NCBI RefSeq assembly: GCF_014359565.1 | Contig: NZ_JACIZD010000002.1 | Coordinates: 1 to 64,000 of the forward strand | Length of the DNA stretch: 64,000 nucleotides | Direction of reading: 5' to 3' | DNA from: Immundisolibacter sp. | GTDB lineage: Bacteria; Pseudomonadota; Gammaproteobacteria; Immundisolibacterales; Immundisolibacteraceae | Shown here: positions 1,809-27,104 of the stretch, piece by piece | How the letters are laid out: each line of letters starts with the position of its first letter | How positions within the stretch are numbered: the stretch's first letter is position 1 | The notes under the pieces: model-generated | What the model was told of the DNA's origin: nothing | The model's input: the letters and a program-made list of their open reading frames with translations, nothing else | Databases searched by the model: none | Program-made: the position numbers and the translations under genes

Positions 1809-1850
1809 TTGACGTGGGTCAAGTCGGGCGCGGGATGGGCGTGAAACGAT
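1809..1850 (+). promoter_or_regulatory. Crp/Fnr-like box and -10 upstream of predicted small RNA
   Basis: TTGAC-GTGG-GTCAA at 1809-1822 is a perfect inverted repeat starting 21 nt after the dioxygenase stop codon. A hexamer AACGAT at 1845-1850 keeps the three best conserved -10 positions, 22 nt beyond the box. The predicted start near 1857 falls just before the first hairpin of the RNA at 1857-1996. No protein gene follows in this direction for almost 1 kb, so an RNA is the likeliest product. Confidence 0.5.
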
Positions 1851-1856
1851 GGCTGC

Positions 1857-1996
1857 GCATTGGGTGTCGGCAATCTGCCGGCACCCGGACGCCACCGCAA
1901 GGGTGGCGGTAATGGTTATCCCGATCGGCCGCGCCGCGGTCCAGGGATGGGGTGGCGTCCCTTATCTGTGGGGGAGCGGGGACGCCACCTTTTTTA
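1857..1996 (+). ncRNA. Predicted structured small RNA with alternative pairings
   Basis: The segment holds successive stems. Stem A is 1862-1872 with 1876-1886 (11 pairs, one G-U, 3-nt loop). Stem B is 1890-1896 with 1902-1908 (7 pairs). A central stem is ATCCC 1918-1922 with GGGAT 1944-1948. The terminator stem is 1951-1961 with 1979-1989. GGACGCCACC occurs twice (1887-1896, 1980-1989), so the arm at 1951-1960 can pair with either copy; the two folds exclude each other. It matches no RNA family I recognise. It could be a free small RNA or the structured 3' end of the dioxygenase transcript. Confidence 0.45.
1951..1996 (+). terminator. Strong intrinsic terminator
   Basis: A perfect 11-bp GC-rich stem (1951-1961 with 1979-1989) has a 17-nt loop and is followed at once by a run of six T. 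It would end transcription coming from the dioxygenase gene or from the promoter at 1809-1850. Confidence 0.8.
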
Positions 1997-4705: not shown

Positions 4706-5782
4706 ATGTCGGTTGAAGAAGAAATCAATGATCGTATCGGAGAAGTCCGCACGGACACCTTTGACATGAGCTTCGGTGAAATTTCCAACTTGCACAAGAA
4801 TAGGGAGCTTGTCATTCAGCCGGAATATCAAAGATTGTTTCGTTGGAGCAACCAGCAAAGATCTCACCTCATAGAATCCATCTTGCTAGAGTTGCCAATC
4901 CCGCAGATTTTTGTAATCGAAAACCAAGACGGGGTTTTAGAACTTATTGATGGGCTACAACGTACTAGTACCGTTTTGCAGTTTATCGATCCAGATTCAG
5001 TCGGCCTTGACCCCTTGACTCTCGAGGGCTGTACGCTTATCAGGGCCTTGAATGGCCTGACGTTTCACGATCTTCCGCTAAGTCTTCGGCTAAGTCTGAA
5101 GCGCGCGCCGATCCGTACTGTCGTCATAAAAAAACAAAGCAGGGGCTTTTTGCGATATGAAATGTTTAAGCGACTCAACACCGGCGGGGCGAATTTGGAG
5201 CCCCAAGAAATCCGAAATTGCTCTGCTCGAATGATAGGAAATGAGGGAGTTAAGTTTTACTCATTCCTCGTGGACTTAACGCAGGATTCCAATTTCTCCG
5301 CGTGCTCGGATTACCTACCACAACCCGAAAAGGAAAAGAAAGGTGCTGAGGAGCTTGTTCTCCGCTTTTTTGCTACGAAAAACGCGCGAAACCTTTTTCG
5401 GGGCAGCGTTCGCGATTGGCTAGACAACTACATGGAGCAGGTGCTGTTGGAACATCATGTGTTTGACTATGCGCAGGAGGAAGCCGAATTCCGCAATGTG
5501 TTTAGGCTTGCGAGGACCAAACTTGGGGAAACTGCATTTTTAAGATATCGTGGAACCATGCCCGTTGGATCACTGCCACCCGCATATTTTGAGGCTATTT
5601 CTATTGGCATTTCAAATACAAAGGCGGACATCGAACATAAAAGCGCCGATACTCTTCGAAACGTAATCACAGCTCTTGTTCAGTCTGATGCTTTTCGAGC
5701 GGTTACGGGTCCCGGCGCGAATTCCCGGGAAAAGATGGAGACAAGAATCCAGCTTGTCACTGACGCGCTAAGAAACGCATGA
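4706..5782 (+). CDS. DUF262 (ParB/GmrS-like) protein of a defence module
   Basis: This 358-residue protein has an N-terminal DUF262 domain: QPEYQRLFRWS at 38-48 and the diagnostic IDGLQRT at 81-87 (family form (I/V)DGxQR), thought to bind and hydrolyse nucleotides in GmrS-, BrxU- and SspE-like defence proteins. Here there is no HNH (DUF1524) nuclease domain after it; the rest is a helical region without a motif I know. An AGAAGGGA site precedes the ATG. It overlaps the HEPN gene by 4 nt (ATGA), so the two are translationally coupled. Codons and base composition are far more AT-rich than all neighbours, indicating acquisition by transfer. Sensor or regulator of the partner nuclease is inferred. 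Confidence 0.85.
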   Translation: MSVEEEINDRIGEVRTDTFDMSFGEISNLHKNRELVIQPEYQRLFRWSNQQRSHLIESILLELPIPQIFVIENQDGVLELIDGLQRTSTVLQFIDPDSVGLDPLTLEGCTLIRALNGLTFHDLPLSLRLSLKRAPIRTVVIKKQSRGFLRYEMFKRLNTGGANLEPQEIRNCSARMIGNEGVKFYSFLVDLTQDSNFSACSDYLPQPEKEKKGAEELVLRFFATKNARNLFRGSVRDWLDNYMEQVLLEHHVFDYAQEEAEFRNVFRLARTKLGETAFLRYRGTMPVGSLPPAYFEAISIGISNTKADIEHKSADTLRNVITALVQSDAFRAVTGPGANSREKMETRIQLVTDALRNA

Positions 5783-6417
5783 AATCGCAGTCGGACGAAC
5801 TGGAAGAAGATCTACGTTGGCGGGAGGCAGAGCTGGCGTCGTTGAAGCGACTGGCCATTTTTCATAGTGAGAACGAAATAGTTTATCGCGCAACATTGCG
5901 CGCGTGCTGGGCGCTGCTTTATGCCCATTTCGAAGGATTTACCAAATTCGCCTGGGAGCTTTTACTAGATAAAGTTGAGGCCGAAAAACTTTCTGTTAAA
6001 GAACTTTCGAGGGAATTCCAAGCCCTCGCGTTGGAAAAAAAGTTTCAAATGCTTAGAGGGAATACTGAAACGAAAATGCTTTGGGAGTTTTTTAGCACGA
6101 TCTTACCTGCTGAGCTCGAAAACTCTGCGGCATTTCATCCGGATTGTAGGCTACAAACAGACAGCAACTTGTGGCCGAATGTATTCGAAAGGGAGTGCGC
6201 TAGAGTTGGCATAAATTCCAATATTTTGTCGGATGAAAGATCCCGAATAAAAACGTTAGTTGCACGCCGCAACGATATCGCCCACGGCAAAAATATGACG
6301 ATCAAATCCGTAGATGAATACACTGAATATGAAAACGCTGCATTTCTAGTTTTGCATGATCTAGCTGTTCAGGTGTTAAGCTTGCTTGAAGATCAGCAGT
6401 ATCTCCAAAAAAGCTAA
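5779..6417 (+). CDS. MAE_28990/MAE_18760-like HEPN nuclease
   Basis: This is a 212-residue all-helical protein. The HEPN ribonuclease motif R-N-x3-H is present as RRNDIAHG (res 163-170), and the N-terminal helix (YRATLRACWALLYAHFEGF, ~37-54) fits the MAE_28990/MAE_18760 group. HEPN proteins of this kind usually cut RNA as dimers. The start overlaps the stop of the DUF262 gene, and the gene shares its AT-rich composition. By analogy with other paired HEPN systems it is probably the toxic effector of an antiviral module held in check or triggered by the DUF262 protein. The pairing is seen directly; the mechanism is inference. Confidence 0.8.
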   Translation: MKSQSDELEEDLRWREAELASLKRLAIFHSENEIVYRATLRACWALLYAHFEGFTKFAWELLLDKVEAEKLSVKELSREFQALALEKKFQMLRGNTETKMLWEFFSTILPAELENSAAFHPDCRLQTDSNLWPNVFERECARVGINSNILSDERSRIKTLVARRNDIAHGKNMTIKSVDEYTEYENAAFLVLHDLAVQVLSLLEDQQYLQKS

Positions 6418-6644: not shown

Positions 6645-7291
6645 CCGCGTAGGGCGGAATAGCGCAGCGTATTCCGCCTTCCGGGTTGCCCCGCCGCCAC
6701 TGTTACACTCCCGCCATGCCGCACTACGTTCGTGCTGACATCCCTGGCGGCACCTTCTTCTTCACCGTCGCCCTGCTCGAACGCCGCCGCCGGCTATTGG
6801 TCGAGAACATCGCGACGCTGCGCGAAGCGTTTCGCGGCGTCCGGCATCGGTATCCGTTCACCATCGACGCCATCGTGATCCTCCCGGATCACCTGCACTG
6901 CGTCTGGACACTGCCGCCCGCCGATGCCGATTTCTCCACCCGCTGGCGATTGATCAAAGCCGCCTTCGCGCGCGGCATCGCGGCTGGGGAACGGCTGTCC
7001 GAACGACGCCAGCGCACCGGCGAGCGAGGCATCTGGCAGCGGCGCTTCTGGGAACACGCGATCCGCGATGCGGCCGACCTGACCCGACACGTGGACTACA
7101 TCCATTACAACCCCGTGAAACACGGCCACGCCGACCACGTTGTGGACTGGCCGTATTCGTCATTTCACCGCTACGTCGAGCGCGGTGTTTATCCACCGGA
7201 CTGGGCCGCCGGATCAGCAGTGCGCGGGGTGAGTTTCGAGTAGCCTTGCTCTCGGAAGGCGGAATACGCTGCGCTATTCCGCCCTACGCGG
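6645..7291 (+). mobile_element. REP-associated tyrosine transposase element with 39-nt inverted REPs
   Basis: The RAYT gene is enclosed by two 39-nt sequences (6645-6683 and 7253-7291) that are perfect reverse complements of each other. Each is itself an imperfect palindrome (GGCGGAATA...TATTCCGCC) with a GTAGGG head, the form of REPs recognised by RAYT enzymes. The element lies between two copies of the restriction-modification gene end. Confidence 0.85.
6716..7243 (+). CDS. REP-associated tyrosine transposase (RAYT, Y1/HUH family)
   Basis: This 175-residue single-strand DNA transposase-like protein has the HUH-type metal motif in LPDHLHCVW (~60-68) and a candidate nucleophilic tyrosine in DYIHYNPVKHG (~133-143). 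These enzymes bind and cut REP hairpins and are thought to spread them. The start at 6716 (MPHYVRADIPGG) is the canonical family N terminus; an earlier in-frame ATG at 6686 lies in the REP region and is unlikely. The gene is complete and GC-rich like the host, unlike the AT-rich pair just upstream. Confidence 0.9.
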   Translation: MPHYVRADIPGGTFFFTVALLERRRRLLVENIATLREAFRGVRHRYPFTIDAIVILPDHLHCVWTLPPADADFSTRWRLIKAAFARGIAAGERLSERRQRTGERGIWQRRFWEHAIRDAADLTRHVDYIHYNPVKHGHADHVVDWPYSSFHRYVERGVYPPDWAAGSAVRGVSFE

Positions 7292-7316: not shown

Positions 7317-10300
7317 TCAATGCGGTGCGGCTTTCATGCGCGCTGTGATGTCGACGGTCTCGACGCTGACACGCGTCACGCGCCGGAGCAGGTCGATCAC
7401 CGCGTCCTTGTGGTCGGCGAAGCGGTAAGTGTCGAACCTGGCGCGGATGGTCGGGTCCTTGGGCTTCTTTTCCTTGTGCTGGTCGAGCACCCAGTCGATG
7501 GCGCAGCGGTTGCCGAGCTGGTAGGCCCAGGCCTCGCGCGGCACGCCGGTGAGCGTGGTCTCGCTGTCCAGCGTGATGGTGCCGGCGTCCTTGTCGGATT
7601 TGAGCACCGGCTTGGGGCTCTGGCCGGCGGCGCGGGCCTTGTCGTCCGGCACGTCGATGCGGGTGAGCGGCCACGGCTCGACGCTTTCGTAGCCGATGTG
7701 CATATCCATCAGCGCCTTGCCCCAGCCCGCCCACTGCCAAAAATCCGCATAAAACGGAATGCGCGGGAATTCGCGCTTCAGGTTCTGCGCGTACTTCTCG
7801 CGGTACACAGGGTCGTGCAGCACCGCGTAGACGTAGTGGAAGATGGCTTCCTTGGTGATCGGCTGGCTCTTCTTGCCGCTGCCGGGCTGGTAGTGCTGCT
7901 GGAACTGCTTCAGCGCCCAGTCGGTGATGTTGTCGATGCGGTTGCCCGCTTCGTCCCACCGCCACAAGCAGACGGTCTGCCCGGCGTTCGGCAAGAACAT
8001 GTCCTTATTGGGCAATCTGTCGAAGGCGAGGACTGCAAACCCCGCGCGGTCTTCTGCTGAAAAGCTGAAACCGGGATTCCGCGTGCTGGGCGACGGGAAG
8101 ACGCTGAAGTTCTGATACGGACGGTGCGTTATCGCAGGAGCGAAGTAGGTGAGGCGCCGCACGTACGGCCGATAGAGCGACTCGTAGACATTGCTGGGGT
8201 CATACGCCAGCGCTGTGCCGCGCTGCATGTGTGTTTCGAGTTCGCTGGTCCATTTGATTCCGCGATCAACGAAGTCGCTTGTCGCTTGCCGTTGCGCGGA
8301 GCGCCTCCAACGCTCGGCGTCGGCCGCATAAGCATCGCAGAAGAACCGCACCCTGTCTTCAAGCGAGGACTGGTCGTCGGAGTAGACCCACTCGTCGCGA
8401 TTCGTGACGATGCCCAAAGAGAACAGTTTGAAGATCACCTTGCTCCGGGACGCCTCACTTGCTTGCTTGGCCTCCTTCGTTGCCACCGGCATCAACTCAT
8501 CGAAGTCATTACTCGTAACGTTCAGCCAGTTCTGCTTCGCATCCGGCCGCACTTCATCGAAGGCCAACTCCGACGCCCGCGCGCTGCCCAACCAAGCCAA
8601 CTTCTCCTCCGCCGTCTCCATCTCCGGCCGCCGTGCATAGAACACGCGCGCGCCCTTCTTGCCCGCCGCGCCGTGGCGCTTGACGAGGAAGCTGATCGCC
8701 ACGCCGGTCTGGATGCCGAACACATTGTGTTTCGTTCCGCTCAGCTTCGGGTTCGCGCGCACGTCGCCGCCCAGGTCCATCACATAGACCTCGGCGAACT
8801 CCTGCGCCACCACCTTGCGGAAGCCATCGAAGGTGCGGCTGTCGATGAAGCTGCGGTTCGTCACGAAGGTCAGCACGCCGTCGGCCGCCAGCCGGTCGCT
8901 GGCCCAGCGAAAGAAGCGCGCGTACATGTCGTACAGCTTGGTCTTCTGCGCCGTGCTCTCGTGGATGTAGGTTTGCTTGATGCGCTTGTCGATGCTCGGG
9001 TATTCGCGGTTCTTGTTGTTGTCGTTTTCGTTCACTTGGTTGGCGTTGTACGGCGGGTTGCCGATGATGACGCTGATCTTGCGGGCGTTCTGGCGCTTGA
9101 TGCGCGCCACGTTCTCCTCGCTGACGCTGCCGAACAGGTCGTGCGTGACGCCGTGGGCGGCGGTGTGCAGGCCGACGTTGTCGAGCGTGTCCACGAAGCA
9201 CAGGTTCTTGAACTCCTCGTATTCGCCGGTGATGGCGGCGTAGGTGGCCTCGATGTTCAGGTTGGCCACGTAGTAGGGCAGGATCGCCACCTCGTTGGCG
9301 TGCAGTTCCTCGCGGTACTTGTGCGCGAGCTTGGCCGGCTGGCCGCGAAAGTGCTCCAGCAGCTCGCAGACGAAGGTGCCGGTGCCGGTGGCCGGGTCGA
9401 GGATCTCGACGTTCTTGTCGATCAGGTTGCGCCCGAAGTGCTTCTCACACAGCCAGTCGGCGCCCTCGATCATGAAGCGCACGATCTCGCCGGGCGTGTA
9501 GACCACGCCCAGCCGGTCGGCGGCCTTGGGGTTGTAGACCTTGTAGAAATTCTCGTAGATGAGCTTCAGGAAGGCCTGCTTCTCGTGGTGGCTGCCGATC
9601 TGCGCGGCCGCGGCGCGGATGGCGGCGTAGTAGGCCTCCAGCCCCTTGAGCGTGGCCCGCTTCAGGCCGCCGGTGAAGAAGGTTTCCTCCAGTTTGTACA
9701 GCTCGCGGGCGACGTTGTTGTCGCGGTGGAACTCGCTGTCGAAGACCTTGGAGAAGATTTCCTCGGTCAGGATGTGCTGGATCAGCATCTCGCGCACGTC
9801 GGCGGCCGTAAGCGCCGGATTGATGGCCTCCTGCGCGTGCGTCAGAAACGCGGCCGATGCCTCGCGAAACGCCGCATTGCTGGCGAACTGCGCCTCGATC
9901 ATGGCGCGCAGGGCTTCCAGCACGGCCGGCAGGTCGGTCTTGAACTGCGCGACGGCCTTGCGGAAGTCGGCAATCTCGGCCCGCTCGTAGGCGAAGAACA
10001 GCTTGAGCAGCTTCTCCAGTTGCTGCACGTCGGTGACGCCGCAGCGCATCACCTCGGCGCGGTTCTGAATCAGCACCGCCTGGGTGCTGTCCTCGAACAC
10101 GATGTTGTCCTGCGGGTAACCGCGCTTGAACTTGAAGGCGATCTCCTCGTCCAGGTCATCCTTCGCGTCCTTGGCCTCCCAGTAGCCGAACGGCACGCGC
10201 AGCTCGTGCAGCAGCGCGCCGTCGACGAAGCGGGTGTCCCGGGTGGCGCTGTCGAGCTTGTACTCGGGGATGAAGACCAGGTCGTGCTGGCGGCCCCAGC

Positions 10301-10412
10301 CCTTGAGCAGGTCCTTGAAGGCCTCGCGCACCACCGACTCGCGGTGCGTGCCGCCGACCTTTTTCAGAAGGTCGAGCTGGGCGAGGTACTGGTTGATCAG
10401 GACTTGGCTCAT
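7317..10412 (-). CDS. Single-chain restriction-modification enzyme (type IIG / ISP-like)
   Basis: This 1031-residue fusion protein carries an N-terminal PD-(D/E)xK nuclease (Asp64 in RFVDG, Glu79-x-Lys81 in YWEAKD) and a long helical connector. The N6-adenine methyltransferase follows, with motif I DPATGTGTF (339-347) and motif IV NPPY (452-455), then a C-terminal target-recognition region like that of type ISP enzymes. No DEAD-box or Walker helicase motifs are seen, so unlike LlaGI-type ISP enzymes it should not translocate; type IIG is the better fit. It would methylate and cut the same asymmetric site. The frame is intact. Its 3' end is partly duplicated beyond the RAYT element. Confidence 0.85.
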   Translation of the reverse strand: MSQVLINQYLAQLDLLKKVGGTHRESVVREAFKDLLKGWGRQHDLVFIPEYKLDSATRDTRFVDGALLHELRVPFGYWEAKDAKDDLDEEIAFKFKRGYPQDNIVFEDSTQAVLIQNRAEVMRCGVTDVQQLEKLLKLFFAYERAEIADFRKAVAQFKTDLPAVLEALRAMIEAQFASNAAFREASAAFLTHAQEAINPALTAADVREMLIQHILTEEIFSKVFDSEFHRDNNVARELYKLEETFFTGGLKRATLKGLEAYYAAIRAAAAQIGSHHEKQAFLKLIYENFYKVYNPKAADRLGVVYTPGEIVRFMIEGADWLCEKHFGRNLIDKNVEILDPATGTGTFVCELLEHFRGQPAKLAHKYREELHANEVAILPYYVANLNIEATYAAITGEYEEFKNLCFVDTLDNVGLHTAAHGVTHDLFGSVSEENVARIKRQNARKISVIIGNPPYNANQVNENDNNKNREYPSIDKRIKQTYIHESTAQKTKLYDMYARFFRWASDRLAADGVLTFVTNRSFIDSRTFDGFRKVVAQEFAEVYVMDLGGDVRANPKLSGTKHNVFGIQTGVAISFLVKRHGAAGKKGARVFYARRPEMETAEEKLAWLGSARASELAFDEVRPDAKQNWLNVTSNDFDELMPVATKEAKQASEASRSKVIFKLFSLGIVTNRDEWVYSDDQSSLEDRVRFFCDAYAADAERWRRSAQRQATSDFVDRGIKWTSELETHMQRGTALAYDPSNVYESLYRPYVRRLTYFAPAITHRPYQNFSVFPSPSTRNPGFSFSAEDRAGFAVLAFDRLPNKDMFLPNAGQTVCLWRWDEAGNRIDNITDWALKQFQQHYQPGSGKKSQPITKEAIFHYVYAVLHDPVYREKYAQNLKREFPRIPFYADFWQWAGWGKALMDMHIGYESVEPWPLTRIDVPDDKARAAGQSPKPVLKSDKDAGTITLDSETTLTGVPREAWAYQLGNRCAIDWVLDQHKEKKPKDPTIRARFDTYRFADHKDAVIDLLRRVTRVSVETVDITARMKAAPH

Positions 10413-22277: not shown

Positions 22278-22318
22278 TTGACGCGCGTCAAGACCGCCGC
22301 CGGCCGCACGGCCACAGT
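22278..22318 (+). promoter_or_regulatory. Crp/Fnr-like box and -10 for Rieske oxygenase gene
   Basis: TTGAC-GCGC-GTCAA at 22278-22291 is a perfect inverted repeat. CACAGT at 22313-22318 is a weak -10-like hexamer exactly 21 nt beyond it, as at the dioxygenase promoter near 800. It predicts a start near 22325, 30 nt before the ATG. Confidence 0.55.
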
Positions 22319-22354: not shown

Positions 22355-23707
22355 ATGAAACCCAACGACATTGACCAGCTGATCGTCGACCGGCCGGATG
22401 ATTGGCTGTTCGAGGTCAGCCGCAGCCTGTTCACGGACCAGGAACTGTTCGACCTGGAGATGCAGCACATCTTCGAGGGCACCTGGATCTTCCTGTGCCA
22501 CGAAAGCCAGGTCGCCCGGCCAAACGACTTTTTCCGCACCCGCATGGGCCGCCAGCCGGTGATCGTCACGCGTGACGCCAACGGCGCCGTGCACGCCTTC
22601 CTGAATGCCTGCCCGCACCGCGGCGCGGCGCTGTGCCGCACCGCCCATGGCAACCAGAAGTTCATCACCTGCCCCTATCACGGCTGGGTGTTCGACAGCG
22701 CCGGGCGCAACGTGGACATCAAGGACCAGGACAAGGGCGCCTATCCGGACGCCTTCCAGCGCGCCAATCACGATCTCGCCCCGGTGCCGCGGGTGGGCGT
22801 GTACCAGGGCTTCGTGTTCGGCAGCCTGAACGCCGACGTGCCGGAGCTGGAAACGCACCTGGGCAACACGCGGCCGTTCATCGACATGCTGGCCGGCATG
22901 GGGCCGGATGGCGCCGAGGTGCTGCGCGGCTCGTCCACCTACACCTACCGCGGCAACTGGAAGATGCAGTGCGAGAACGGCATCGACGGTTACCACTTCA
23001 CCAGCGTGCACGGCAATTACGTGGGCGTCATCACGCGGCGGCTGGAAGGTGCGCAGTCCGGCGATCGGCCGGACAAGGTCAAGACCGGCTTCGACAAGAA
23101 CGCGCTGGCCGGCCGCACCGGCAGCTATGACCTCGGCCGCGGCCACGCCATGATCTGGAGCACCTTCCCGCGGCCGGAAAACCGTCCGCTGTGGGACAGC
23201 CGGGACGAGGTCAAGGCGCGCATGGGCGAGGTGTACGCCGACTGGATGCTGCGCCGTCAGCGCAACCTGCTGGTCTACCCGAACGTGAACCTGATGGAGC
23301 AGGCCTCGTCGCAGATCCGCGTGTTCCAGCCGATCGCGCCCGGCCTGACGCAGGTGCAGATCTACTGCATCGCGCCCAAGGGCGAGAGCCGTGGCCAGCG
23401 CGAGCGGCGCATCCGCCAGTACGAGGATTTCTTCAACGCCACCGGCATGGCGACGCCGGACGACCTGACCGAGTTCGAGGCCTGCCAGGACGGCTTTCAG
23501 GCCCGCTACGTGGCCTGGCAGCAGGGCTACGACCGCGGCATGACGCGCATGCTCAAGGGCGCCGACGACATGGCGCAGCAGCTTGGCATCAGCCCGGAGT
23601 CGAGCGGTCCGGACATCATGGACGAGACGCTGTACTACGGTCAGTACCGCGAGTGGCGGCGGCTGATCGGGCGCGGGGTCAGCGGGCAGAAAAACCGTAT
23701 CGGCTGA
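22355..23707 (+). CDS. Ring-hydroxylating dioxygenase, alpha subunit (BenA/AntA-like)
   Basis: This 450-residue oxygenase component has the Rieske [2Fe-2S] motif as CPHRGA...CPYHGW (~res 88-111) and the catalytic iron site in CENGIDGYHFTSVH (~208-221), with the bridging Asp and both His. Length and motifs fit benzoate/anthranilate-type alpha subunits, which place two hydroxyls on an aromatic ring and need an electron-transfer partner. No beta subunit gene adjoins it, though one exists at 31377. GGGAGAA precedes the ATG and a Crp/Fnr-like box lies 63 nt upstream. The minus-strand ferredoxin gene beyond could supply electrons. Confidence 0.9.
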   Translation: MKPNDIDQLIVDRPDDWLFEVSRSLFTDQELFDLEMQHIFEGTWIFLCHESQVARPNDFFRTRMGRQPVIVTRDANGAVHAFLNACPHRGAALCRTAHGNQKFITCPYHGWVFDSAGRNVDIKDQDKGAYPDAFQRANHDLAPVPRVGVYQGFVFGSLNADVPELETHLGNTRPFIDMLAGMGPDGAEVLRGSSTYTYRGNWKMQCENGIDGYHFTSVHGNYVGVITRRLEGAQSGDRPDKVKTGFDKNALAGRTGSYDLGRGHAMIWSTFPRPENRPLWDSRDEVKARMGEVYADWMLRRQRNLLVYPNVNLMEQASSQIRVFQPIAPGLTQVQIYCIAPKGESRGQRERRIRQYEDFFNATGMATPDDLTEFEACQDGFQARYVAWQQGYDRGMTRMLKGADDMAQQLGISPESSGPDIMDETLYYGQYREWRRLIGRGVSGQKNRIG

Positions 23708-23718
23708 CGAGCCCGTTC

Positions 23719-23830
23719 GGCCCGCGGGCGGGCCTCCCACCAAAGCCTACAAAGACGGATATCGCCGCGCCCCCAGCGCGAATGCGCGCAGCGCCCGACG
23801 TCCCGGTTGCGGGCATGGCCCGCTCCCAGC
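23719..23830. repeat. Two REP-like palindromes
   Basis: GGCCCGCGGGCGGGCCTCCCAC (23719-23740) and GCGGGCATGGCCCGCTCCCA (23811-23830) belong to the same dispersed palindrome types as those at 2231-2252 and 57229-57250. They lie between the convergent Rieske and ferredoxin genes. Confidence 0.55.
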
Positions 23831-23832
23831 AA

Positions 23833-23868
23833 AAAAACCGGCCAGCCCCGTCAAGGAGCCGGCCGGCT
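23833..23868 (-). terminator. Intrinsic terminator of the ferredoxin unit
   Basis: On the minus strand, GGCCGG (23868-23863) pairs with CCGGCC (23845-23840), and seven T follow (23839-23833). It lies 27 nt after the ferredoxin stop codon. Confidence 0.75.
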
Positions 23869-23894
23869 ACCCCCTTGCCTCGTTGATTGACCGC

Positions 23895-24203
23895 TCAGGC
23901 CGCCGGCTGCTGCAGGCTGTAGTCCGGCACCTCGACCTCGACATCGCCATCCAGCAGCTTGGTGACGCAGGACAGACGTGCGTTGGCGGGTGCTTCCTCG
24001 GCGGCCAGCGTGCGCAGCTCGGTCGGGAACGGCGCGCTCAGGTGCTCCATGCCGGACAGGATCAGCACGACGTCGGACCCGCAGCTGCCCAGGCCGCACG
24101 AGGTGTGAATCGGCACCCCGCCGCGGCCCTTGATCAGACCCAGCAGGCTGGAGCCGGGCATCACCTTGCGCCACGGCCCGCCGTTGATGCGGATGCGCGC
24201 CAT
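23895..24203 (-). CDS. [2Fe-2S] ferredoxin with Asp at third ligand position
   Basis: This 102-residue plant/adrenodoxin-like ferredoxin has the cluster loop TSCGLGSCGSDVV where C-x4-C-x2-C is expected, so the third cysteine is Asp. The fourth cysteine is present in ARLSCVTK. The nucleotides at 24064-24095 read clearly as this sequence. It starts 5 nt after the heme-oxygenase-like gene and ends before a strong terminator, so the two form one unit. It should deliver single electrons to an oxygenase, most simply its operon partner; Asp ligation would be expected to change the potential. Confidence 0.8.
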   Translation of the reverse strand: MARIRINGGPWRKVMPGSSLLGLIKGRGGVPIHTSCGLGSCGSDVVLILSGMEHLSAPFPTELRTLAAEEAPANARLSCVTKLLDGDVEVEVPDYSLQQPAA

Positions 24204-24208
24204 CGGCC

Positions 24209-24949
24209 TTACCAGCGCGCCACGGCGTCGAACAGGCCGGTGCCGATGGCATTCGCCACCAGGCTGGCGCCGGCGATGCACGCCCGCTGGGCGTTGATGT
24301 CGTCGGCCGGCACATATTTTTCGAGCACGCGCAGGCCTTCGTTGCCGTGTTCCATTTCCACCTCGCCGCCGTGGATGCGGAACCATTCGGCGTCTTCCTC
24401 GGCCAGGCCGTAGTGCTTCACCGCGGCCTCTCCGATGCGGCCGAACACCGCCGGCACCACGCTTTCCACGCCCACCGCGGTGGCGGCCATGCCCTCGATC
24501 CACGGCCGGTGGAACACGTACCCTTCCAGCACCATGCGCAGCATGTGGATGTAGGGATCGAACTCGAACGATGCCCAGTCCGGCCCTTCCAGGATGGCGT
24601 CGCCGGGGCCGCCGAGCGCATTCACCGCCTGCGCCAGCAGGAACGGGTGGTCGCGCTCGATATAGGCGTTCTCGAGCAGCGCGGCCTTCACGGCGTGGTC
24701 GTTCTTGGGGCAGCCGGCGGCCAGCGCCGACACGTACTCCGGGAAACCGGTGATGACCCAGCACAGGTTGGCCATCATGCGGGCGAACTTGTCCTTCGGC
24801 AGGCGGCCGGCCTCGATTTCCTTGAGCACCGGGTGCGCCAGCGCGGCGGCGGCGACCGGTTCCAGGATGTCGTCTTTCAGGTGCTTGAGCCAGTCGGCCT
24901 TTACGTCGATCAGATAAGCGGTGTGGACGTCGTGTGCAACGGTAGCCAT
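24209..24949 (-). CDS. Heme-oxygenase-like (TenA/PqqC-fold) iron oxidase
   Basis: This 246-residue all-helical protein of the heme-oxygenase-like metallo-oxidase group has ligand-type motifs ENAYIERDHP (~93-102) and WFRIHGGEVEMEHGNEG (~183-199). The latter is close to the H-x3-D-x2-H of UndA/CADD-type diiron enzymes but with Glu and a one-residue insertion. Such proteins use O2 on small molecules; the substrate is unknown. GGAGGAG precedes the ATG. The next gene, 5 nt away, is a ferredoxin, which suggests a dedicated electron donor. Surrounding genes imply a step in aromatic breakdown. Confidence 0.75.
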   Translation of the reverse strand: MATVAHDVHTAYLIDVKADWLKHLKDDILEPVAAAALAHPVLKEIEAGRLPKDKFARMMANLCWVITGFPEYVSALAAGCPKNDHAVKAALLENAYIERDHPFLLAQAVNALGGPGDAILEGPDWASFEFDPYIHMLRMVLEGYVFHRPWIEGMAATAVGVESVVPAVFGRIGEAAVKHYGLAEEDAEWFRIHGGEVEMEHGNEGLRVLEKYVPADDINAQRACIAGASLVANAIGTGLFDAVARW

Positions 24950-25157
24950 GGGCTGCTCCTCCAGGTGATATCACCGCCGGCCAGTGGCTGGCGGCTGTGT
25001 GTTTCAACCGTGTGCCGAGCGGGTGGCCCGTCCCTGGTATCCCGCGAGCGATCCCTGCGGCCTGCGCATCCTGCGCAGGCGTCCTGCCGCCCGGCCCTGG
25101 GCAGCGCATCGATGTGTCGGTACCGGCGGCCCAACGGCCACCGGTACCGGGCGCGCC

Positions 25158-26099
25158 TCAGGCGGCGTCGGTTTTGGCGGCGCTTTCCTCCTCCGGCGCC
25201 ACCATGTCCAGGTCCATGCCGAAGCCGGATGCTTCCACCTCGTGGCCCCAGATGTCGGCCGAGTAGTACTCCTGCTGGCTCGGCGCCGAGCGTGCACCCC
25301 AGCCGAGTTCGGACAGCCAGCCGGACGGGTTGCCGCAGTAGAAGGTCACGGCCTGATCGTTGGAGTGCTTGCCGATGTCGATGCCCACCGCCAGCTTGCG
25401 CTGACGCACCGCGTGATACGCCACGCCCAGGTCGTTCAGGTCCGTGTACTCCAGCATCAGGTGATTGATGCGCTTGGGCATCGGCCCGCCCAGGAAAGCC
25501 ACCGAGTGCTGGCGATCGTTGCAGTGCATGAAGGTCGGCATGACCACCGAGCCGTCGGGTTGGCGCAGCTTGTACTCCACCGAGCCACGCATGCCGAACA
25601 CCTTGGTGTAGAAGTCGTAGGCCGCCTTGACGTCGCTCTGGCGCAGGATGCAGTGGCCCAGGCCCTGATCGCCGGTGACGAAGCGCCCGAACATGGGGCG
25701 GCCCGGATGGAACGGCCGGAAGGTCATCACCTCCGGGCCGTAGAAAACCTCGGTCGGGTTGCCGCCCGGATCGTTCAGCTTGAGCAGGCCCAGCACGCGC
25801 CGCTCGTCACACTCGGCGGTACTCGCAAAGCGGTACGGAACCTTGGCGGCTTCCAGCTGGGCGGCCATTTCCTCCAGCTCGTCCGGACCCGGCACGCGCC
25901 AGCCGATGTAGGCCAGGTCGTCCTCGTTGCTCTTGTGCAGCACGAAGCGGTGGTGCCAGTCGTCCAGGCGCAGGTATTTGCGATCGCCCTCGCCGGCGTC
26001 GTGCAGCTCCATGCCGACGATCTCGGTGGCGAAACACTCCCACGCCGCCATGTCGGTGACGTTGAAGCCCATGTAACCCAGCTCGGTAACCTTGACCAT
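25158..26099 (-). CDS. Extradiol dioxygenase, BphC/NahC-like
   Basis: This 313-residue, two-domain VOC extradiol dioxygenase has its 2-His-1-Glu iron site in GLGHCILR, RINHLMLEY and NPSGWLSELGWG. The spacing and the GWG end match biphenyl-2,3-diol and 1,2-dihydroxynaphthalene dioxygenases, so a bicyclic or larger catechol is plausible. The ATG at 26099 has GGGGAGAA upstream. The C-terminal ~25 residues are acidic and probably loose. A Crp/Fnr-like box read on this strand (26201-26188) with a -10 at 26166-26161 should drive it. Confidence 0.9.
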   Translation of the reverse strand: MVKVTELGYMGFNVTDMAAWECFATEIVGMELHDAGEGDRKYLRLDDWHHRFVLHKSNEDDLAYIGWRVPGPDELEEMAAQLEAAKVPYRFASTAECDERRVLGLLKLNDPGGNPTEVFYGPEVMTFRPFHPGRPMFGRFVTGDQGLGHCILRQSDVKAAYDFYTKVFGMRGSVEYKLRQPDGSVVMPTFMHCNDRQHSVAFLGGPMPKRINHLMLEYTDLNDLGVAYHAVRQRKLAVGIDIGKHSNDQAVTFYCGNPSGWLSELGWGARSAPSQQEYYSADIWGHEVEASGFGMDLDMVAPEEESAAKTDAA

Positions 26100-26160
26100 A
26101 CGTGTTCTCCCCGCGGTGACTGGCCTGCGCCGCAACCCCAGCGGTACCGGCGTGCACCGC

Positions 26161-26201
26161 ATTACGCCACGCAGGCGGGCGGCGCACTTGACGCAGGTCA
26201 G
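26161..26201 (-). promoter_or_regulatory. Crp/Fnr-like box and -10 for the BphC/NahC-like gene
   Basis: The plus strand reads TTGAC-GCAG-GTCAG at 26188-26201, one mismatch from a perfect palindrome. On the minus strand a -10-like CGTAAT lies at 26166-26161, 21 nt beyond the box, with a predicted start near 26154 and a 55-nt leader. A weaker plus-strand reading toward the enoyl-CoA hydratase gene is possible, so both divergent units may respond. Confidence 0.5.
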
Positions 26202-26321
26202 GCCGGCGCATCGGCCGGGCCGCTGTACCGGCCGCGCGGGCATCGCTTATCCTGCCGACCGACCGTCCGGCAAGCGCCGAACGCATCGCCGCCAACGCAA
26301 ATCCCAAGGAGAAACCCGCCC

Positions 26322-27104
26322 ATGAGCGAGCCGCTGGTCACCTACGCCCGCGACGGCCACGTTGCCGTCATCACCATGAACCGCCCCGAGGCCATGAACG
26401 CCATGAGCGTGGCCATGCTCAACGAGCTCACCGCCGCGGTTAAGCAGTACGCGGCCGACGACGAGGCCTGGGTCGGCGTGCTGCGCGGCGAGGGCCGGGC
26501 CTTCTGCACCGGCGGGGACCTGAAGGAAGCCCTGGAGCTGATCGGCGACGAGCCGGCCAATTTCTACGTCATGCCGCGCCAGGGCCTGGAAGCCTTCGCC
26601 CTGGTGCGCGCCACGCCCAAGCCGATGATCGCCGCCGTGCACGGCTACTGCATGGCCGGCGGCCTGCTGCTGGCCAACGCCTGCGACCTGATCGTGGCCG
26701 GCGAATCGTGCAAGTTCGGCATTCCGGAAACCTCGGTCGGCATGCCGACCATGGGCTACCTGGACCTGTGGAAGTTCATGGGCCCGCGCGTGTTCATGGA
26801 AAAGGTGCTGACCGCCGAGCCGTTCGGTGCCGCCGAGGCCAAGGCCTGCGGCCTGGTCAACCGCGTGGTGGCGGACGACCAGGTACAGGCCGAGGCCATG
26901 AAGCTGGCGCAGAAAATCGCCAGCAACTCGCCGCGCTCGGTGGCCGCCCACACGCAGGCGGTGCGCCTGTCGGTCAAGTACAACCGCGAGGTGCTGGAGG
27001 AATTCCAGCGCCAGATATGGGACCCGGTCGTGTTCGGGCAGGACATCCAGGAAGGCCTGGCCTCGTTCGGCCAGCGCCGCAAGCCGGAGTGGAAGAATCG
27101 GTAA
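26322..27104 (+). CDS. Enoyl-CoA hydratase/isomerase (crotonase) family protein
   Basis: This 260-residue crotonase-fold protein has oxyanion-hole segments GEGRAFCTGGDLKEA (~58-72) and HGYCMAGGLLLANACDL (~107-123), followed by FGIPETSVGMP. The first catalytic Glu of true hydratases falls in the YCMAGG region without a Glu there, while the second (PETSVG) is present, so isomerase, hydrolase or ring-cleaving activity is also possible. AAGGAG precedes the ATG. With the acyl-CoA dehydrogenase 167 nt downstream it probably handles a CoA-bound ring-cleavage product. Confidence 0.8.
   Translation: MSEPLVTYARDGHVAVITMNRPEAMNAMSVAMLNELTAAVKQYAADDEAWVGVLRGEGRAFCTGGDLKEALELIGDEPANFYVMPRQGLEAFALVRATPKPMIAAVHGYCMAGGLLLANACDLIVAGESCKFGIPETSVGMPTMGYLDLWKFMGPRVFMEKVLTAEPFGAAEAKACGLVNRVVADDQVQAEAMKLAQKIASNSPRSVAAHTQAVRLSVKYNREVLEEFQRQIWDPVVFGQDIQEGLASFGQRRKPEWKNR

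Follow-up and report, generated by a model that had tools for sequence, protein, structure and literature searches.

A putative FNR-type-controlled small RNA behind a catechol 2,3-dioxygenase gene in an oxygenase regulon of Immundisolibacter

Relation to described small RNAs

The genus Immundisolibacter is known from polluted soils and as a degrader of polycyclic aromatic hydrocarbons (PAH). Small RNAs (sRNAs) that are located in 3' untranslated regions (UTRs) and have their own promoter constitute a functional class in bacteria, and the predicted RNA described here resembles them, as it lies directly behind a coding gene, with which it shares a terminator. Unlike in that class, however, the gene and the RNA both carry the same regulator box, so that the dioxygenase mRNA and the sRNA would be co-induced. 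Its features are likewise reminiscent of E. coli FnrS, in being short and intergenic, with an FNR-type promoter, an intrinsic terminator and an Hfq protein encoded in the genome, but it has neither sequence nor Rfam similarity to FnrS, it falls within a regulon of oxygenase genes and it is nearly fully double-stranded. PhrS of Pseudomonas aeruginosa, which is reported to depend on the anaerobic regulator ANR (PMC5703892), offers a similar gammaproteobacterial setting with Hfq, although here too sequence similarity is absent and both the neighbourhood and the regulon differ. In sequence and structure the RNA does not group with the FnrS or PhrS families, as no Rfam match was obtained at the gathering threshold. 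A further parallel is found in CrcZ and CrcY of Pseudomonas catabolite repression, which influence catabolic gene expression, as is proposed here, and which work through Hfq/Crc binding (PMC4063720 and others); the promoter logic of the RNA described here is different. In kind, it would be a new FNR-type-controlled sRNA, a known class, and its unusual part is membership in the oxygenase regulon of a strong PAH degrader.

The window, by which we mean the whole 64,000-nt stretch that was analysed, comprises positions 1-64,000 of contig NZ_JACIZD010000002.1 from the 3.09-Mb genome of an Immundisolibacter sp. (G000). Two congeners served for comparison, Immundisolibacter sp. STE_186 (G001), which is the more distant one, and G002, a single contig of 3.24 Mb. 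A genome of the same family and a different genus (G003) was used to compare the orthologous dioxygenase region.

Promoter and fold of the predicted RNA

The gene preceding the RNA (positions 880-1788, + strand) encodes a 302-aa catechol 2,3-dioxygenase (NCBIfam TIGR03211, 365 bits for a cut-off of 320; Pfam PF00903). Its own promoter contains an FNR-type box, TTGACagccGTCAA (794-807, +), and a -10-like CAGAAT at 829-834. This box is identical in both congeners and has a single mismatch in the other genus, where TTGACctggGTCAT precedes the orthologous gene of G003 together with an AT-rich -10 at regulon spacing. Behind the gene lies another box of the form TTGAC-N4-GTCAA, TTGACgtggGTCAA (1809-1822, +), in which 10/10 box positions are conserved in the three Immundisolibacter genomes, while the N4 spacer varies (GTGG, CTGG and CGGC). 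An extended -10, TGA-AACGAT (1842-1850, +), follows 22 nt after the box, with the TG at 1842-1843 and the hexamer AACGAT, which is AATGAT in G001, at 1845-1850. The hexamer and the preceding TG predict a start at about 1857, relative to which the box centre is located near -41.5; as a -10 the hexamer is weak (3-4 of 6 positions). These are the elements from which the initial annotation had predicted a start at 1857 (a Crp/Fnr-like box and a -10), and both are indeed present there. The box, the -10 and a length of 139 nt are found again at the equivalent locus in both congeners, so the arrangement of an FNR-type palindrome near -41.5 before a -10 has a geometry conserved in all three genomes. 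Judged from sequence, a conserved box with a varying spacer, combined with a constant length, is what characterizes a promoter and transcript under constraint. Transcription of the minus strand from the 1809 box was rejected, as it has no -10 at the correct spacing and would enter the dioxygenase gene in the antisense direction.

The RNA is predicted to extend from 1857 to 1995 (+), which gives 139 nt in all three genomes with the last T of a T6 run as its end, and its predicted fold is a chain of four tandem hairpins (all on the + strand). Hairpin 1 (1861-1887) has diverged in sequence in G001, and the hairpin predicted there is shorter. Hairpin 2 (1890-1908) pairs CGCCACC with GGTGGCG and has 9 bp in G001, while hairpin 3 (1917-1949) has a two-part stem, TATCCC/GGGATG around GGCCGC/GCGGTC, whose bases are unchanged in the three genomes. 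The last is a predicted intrinsic terminator (1950-1995) with a perfect 11-bp stem, formed by GGTGGCGTCCC (1951-1961) and GGGACGCCACC (1979-1989), and T6 at 1990-1995. The perfect stem and T6 had already been recognized, with an end at 1996 that was one base too far; a separate terminator scan passed over this terminator, since its loop is longer than the limit of the scan. The sequence features noted initially are thus confirmed as real. The folding energy is -84.3 kcal/mol (z = -5.4 to -5.6 versus dinucleotide shuffles in G000), with z values of -5.5, -5.4 and -4.4 in the three genomes and of -3.7, -4.2 and -2.2 once the terminator is removed. Little of the RNA is unpaired, and its longest open segment, GUAAUGGUU, is only partly conserved in G001. 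Covariation amounted to one double change in 47 pairs, which is not above shuffles in a comparison that has no power, as it comprises only three near-identical sequences.

The energetics of this fold also bear upon the suggestion of the initial annotation that the RNA has two mutually exclusive folds, with the logic of an attenuator or switch. In a conformational switch of this kind, the arms at 1887-1896, 1902-1908, 1951-1960 and 1980-1989 would exchange partners to control termination. The arms themselves are present as had been described, with GGACGCCACC at 1887-1896 and 1980-1989, GGTGGCG at 1902-1908 and GGTGGCGTCC at 1951-1960; their complementarity makes alternative pairings possible on paper, and in the nascent transcripts of G000 and G002 the fold that joins arm 1 to arm 3 is the minimum until the last arm has been made. 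However, in the finished RNA the alternative costs about 13-16 kcal/mol in G000, 13-18 in G002 and 18 in G001, and even the nascent alternative of G001 lies about 5 kcal/mol over the minimum. The 10-bp alternative arm is also broken in G001 by a change of GGACGCCACC to AACCGCCACC (GGA to AAC), while hairpin 2 gains pairs there. Furthermore, a switch would have no gene directly downstream to attenuate: on the + strand, about 820 nt separate the terminator from the following gene (start at 2814), and an opposing ORF (2614-2318) intervenes. The earlier statement that no protein gene follows was therefore nearly right. With neither a conserved mutually exclusive pairing nor a cis gene directly downstream, the locus does not resemble an attenuator or riboswitch, and we consider a switch highly improbable. 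The repeated arms are explained by a stem sequence that two of the hairpins have in common.

An RNA made up of consecutive hairpins, with few bases left open, might also sequester a protein in the manner of a Csr/Rsm-type sponge, and the RNA does contain CCAGGGATGG, which we take to resemble a CsrA site. On the other hand, the several loop GGA motifs typical of such sponges were not found, as the terminator loop is the only hairpin loop with a GGA and the GGGA in hairpin 3 is base-paired, and the Rfam match to RsmW reached 12.4 bits versus a cut-off of 52. A sponge of this type is accordingly very unlikely.

Several other elements were observed farther along the window. REP-like palindromic elements of the GTGGGAGCGCAGC.TGTGCTGCGC type (2069-2100 and 2160-2260) are located behind the RNA in G000 and G002 and are missing there in G001. 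At 4706-6417 (+), a GmrSD_N (DUF262) gene overlaps a MAE_28990-type HEPN gene as a predicted defence-like pair, and a single-polypeptide Type ISP restriction-modification enzyme (7317-10412, -) adjoins an IS200-like (Y1) transposase gene (6686-7243, +).

Conservation and distribution of the RNA

In blastn comparisons, the region is present once per genome and only in the two congeners, at the equivalent place behind the orthologous dioxygenase gene. Between G000 and G001, positions 1889-2001 are 92% identical (105/114 columns), whereas the dioxygenase gene is 89.5% identical at the DNA level and 76% identical at its third codon positions (binomial P of about 9e-6 for 92% against 76%). The adjoining non-coding DNA reaches only 45% (1789-1808), 53% (1857-1888) and 38% (2003-2100). 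Since the block is no more conserved than the best-conserved coding parts, it is relative to synonymous sites and to the neighbouring non-coding DNA that constraint is claimed.

One conceivable source of such constraint is a short translated ORF, (M)VIPIGRAAVQGWGGVPYLWGSGDATFFIA, whose frame is open across the conserved block. Its ATG at 1912 is ACG in G001, however, base changes within the block are mostly non-synonymous on direct reading, the block has no coding signature and the frame continues through the terminator, all of which makes translation extremely improbable. A more serious alternative is that the hairpins are solely a structured 3' UTR on the dioxygenase mRNA, ending transcription and protecting the message, with no independent RNA. 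Structured 3' ends do stabilise mRNAs, there is no terminator between the dioxygenase end at 1788 and the hairpins, and in all three genomes the RNA is found solely behind the dioxygenase gene. Still, such an end would not account for a separate regulon-type box and a correctly spaced, conserved extended -10 between the gene and the hairpins, nor for conservation beyond the needs of a terminator, including the invariant stems of hairpin 3, and the orthologous gene of G003 is not followed by this structure. As an exclusive explanation, a 3' UTR is unlikely.

Beyond the genus, a covariance model searched against 369 gammaproteobacterial genomes and the family detected the RNA only in Immundisolibacter; two further matches (E of 0.016-0.024 per genome) were rejected as chance level over 369 genomes. 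No match to the RNA was found by blastn among phages and plasmids, and Rfam searches at gathering and relaxed thresholds gave no real match, with only chance-level ones below gathering. A scan of GTDB genomes by means of the dioxygenase recovered G001 and no additional Immundisolibacter carrying the RNA. By these sequence searches, the RNA has no Rfam relative and, within the searched sets, no homologue beyond the genus.

The box regulon, its candidate regulator and the proposed role of the RNA

It is evident that the box of the RNA is part of a larger set. The exact TTGAC-N4-GTCAA pattern occurs 9, 10 and 13 times in G000, G001 and G002, respectively, compared with 2, 2 and 3 occurrences of the backwards control pattern. 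One of the nine boxes of G000 precedes the RNA and the remaining eight are located 61-107 bp before coding units. Rieske ring-hydroxylating dioxygenases (RHDs) account for five of these units, four of them alpha-subunit genes and the fifth a beta-alpha pair; the others encode the catechol 2,3-dioxygenase next to the RNA, a desaturase-type oxygenase of the FA_desaturase family and a truncated globin (Bac_globin). All eight encode oxygen-using or oxygen-binding proteins (seven oxygenase units and one globin), and most of the sites are found again before orthologues in G001 and G002. Within the window, the alpha-subunit gene of a Rieske dioxygenase (22355-23707) has such a box (22278-22291, +) 63 bp in front of it. 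Among 27 box-aligned promoters from the three genomes, an A..T -10 core is found exactly 21 nt downstream, as compared to 22 nt for the RNA promoter; the direction toward the gene was chosen for this alignment, which may introduce some bias, while the spacing itself was not chosen. Boxes that do not precede oxygenase genes account for 4/13 in G002 and for at least one in G001, and those of G002 could possibly belong to a different branch of the regulon or have arisen by chance. The canonical TTGAT-N4-ATCAA box occurs only twice in G000, with no obvious oxygenase link.

Some individual boxed sites also have features of their own. The box at 22278 heads a second aromatic cluster (window 22355-27104) with RHD alpha, ferredoxin-like, extradiol-type dioxygenase and enoyl-CoA hydratase-like ORFs, whose functions other than RHD were read by eye only. 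The four non-oxygenase boxes of G002 are at 1410647, 1414305, 1454958 and 1508147 of its contig (G002:C1), two of them 3.7 kb apart. In G000, a 276-aa protein (L149:3144-3971, on C1) is encoded divergently from a BenA-like dioxygenase boxed at 504509, with the boxed intergenic region common to both; it has no Pfam or NCBIfam match, is conserved in G001 and G002 and is a candidate orphan aromatic-pathway protein.

With regard to the regulator, the box-to--10 spacing of 21-22 nt corresponds to a box centred between about -40.5 and -41.5, as in the class II arrangement of activators of the CRP/FNR family. Positions near -41.5 have been called almost optimal for Fnr-dependent promoters in Dinoroseobacter (PMC5398030), and TTGac-N4-gtCAA has been described as an Anr box in P. 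aeruginosa (PMC4974557). Five HTH_Crp_2 proteins are encoded in G000, two of which score above the Fnr cut-off of NCBIfam, contain CX2CX5C, an additional Cys and an ETVSR recognition helix (ExxSR), and are predicted to be FNR-type [4Fe-4S] paralogues. Presumably, it is FNR that binds the boxes. Counting against this reading, it would be physiologically unusual for FNR to drive oxygen-requiring enzymes. One of the two iron-sulphur paralogues (L152:3111-3833, minus strand) is physically linked to an oxygenase gene, being directly upstream of the boxed Rieske dioxygenase gene at G000:C2:330082 (L152:3083), and the other is encoded elsewhere (L155:1568-2332).

Taken together, we regard it as probable that the locus encodes an independently transcribed, FNR-type-activated sRNA, a non-coding member of the oxygenase regulon that can also form the 3' end of the dioxygenase mRNA. 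The box, the conserved promoter and length, the regulon membership, the sequence constraint and the stable, static fold are direct computational observations, and the promoter part of the proposed mechanism is well supported. The notion of a regulatory RNA that has a boxed promoter of its own and is linked to aromatic catabolism has gained strong circumstantial support, as the same box precedes seven oxygenase units and a globin, the adjacent gene included. In addition, we infer a discrete 139-nt structured transcript that begins at a separate FNR-type promoter of class II and ends at the intrinsic terminator. As box and promoter geometry are common to the oxygenase and globin genes and the RNA, an iron-sulphur regulator of the FNR family, most probably active under oxygen scarcity, would turn on the oxygenase set and the RNA jointly. 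Read-through from the dioxygenase gene would also place the structure at the 3' end of its mRNA, which makes the sRNA and 3' UTR readings compatible; the earlier alternative of a structured 3' end could therefore hold alongside the sRNA, since no terminator separates gene and RNA. The RNA may then act in trans on mRNAs, probably with Hfq, which is encoded in G000, or on an RNA-binding protein. Target prediction across 14 regulon translation-start regions detected no pairing above shuffles, and an RNA so nearly completely paired could also have a role in binding a protein.

In such a scheme, the RNA would be the post-transcriptional arm of the regulon, much like FnrS in E. coli or PhrS in Pseudomonas. 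More tentatively, that regulon might be an undescribed FNR-box oxygen-sensing regulon over many RHDs, in which the RNA tunes the making or use of oxygen- and iron-demanding enzymes at low oxygen. I. cernigliae has been reported with 21 xylX-type oxygenase genes (PMC9535955). If true, Immundisolibacter would co-regulate a small RNA with oxygenases and a truncated globin via a single oxygen-sensor-type box, and a regulatory RNA without known relatives would join the few that are tied to aromatic catabolism. It would also become possible to test how aromatic degradation is sustained in such bacteria during a shortage of oxygen, their co-substrate as well as their respiratory acceptor.
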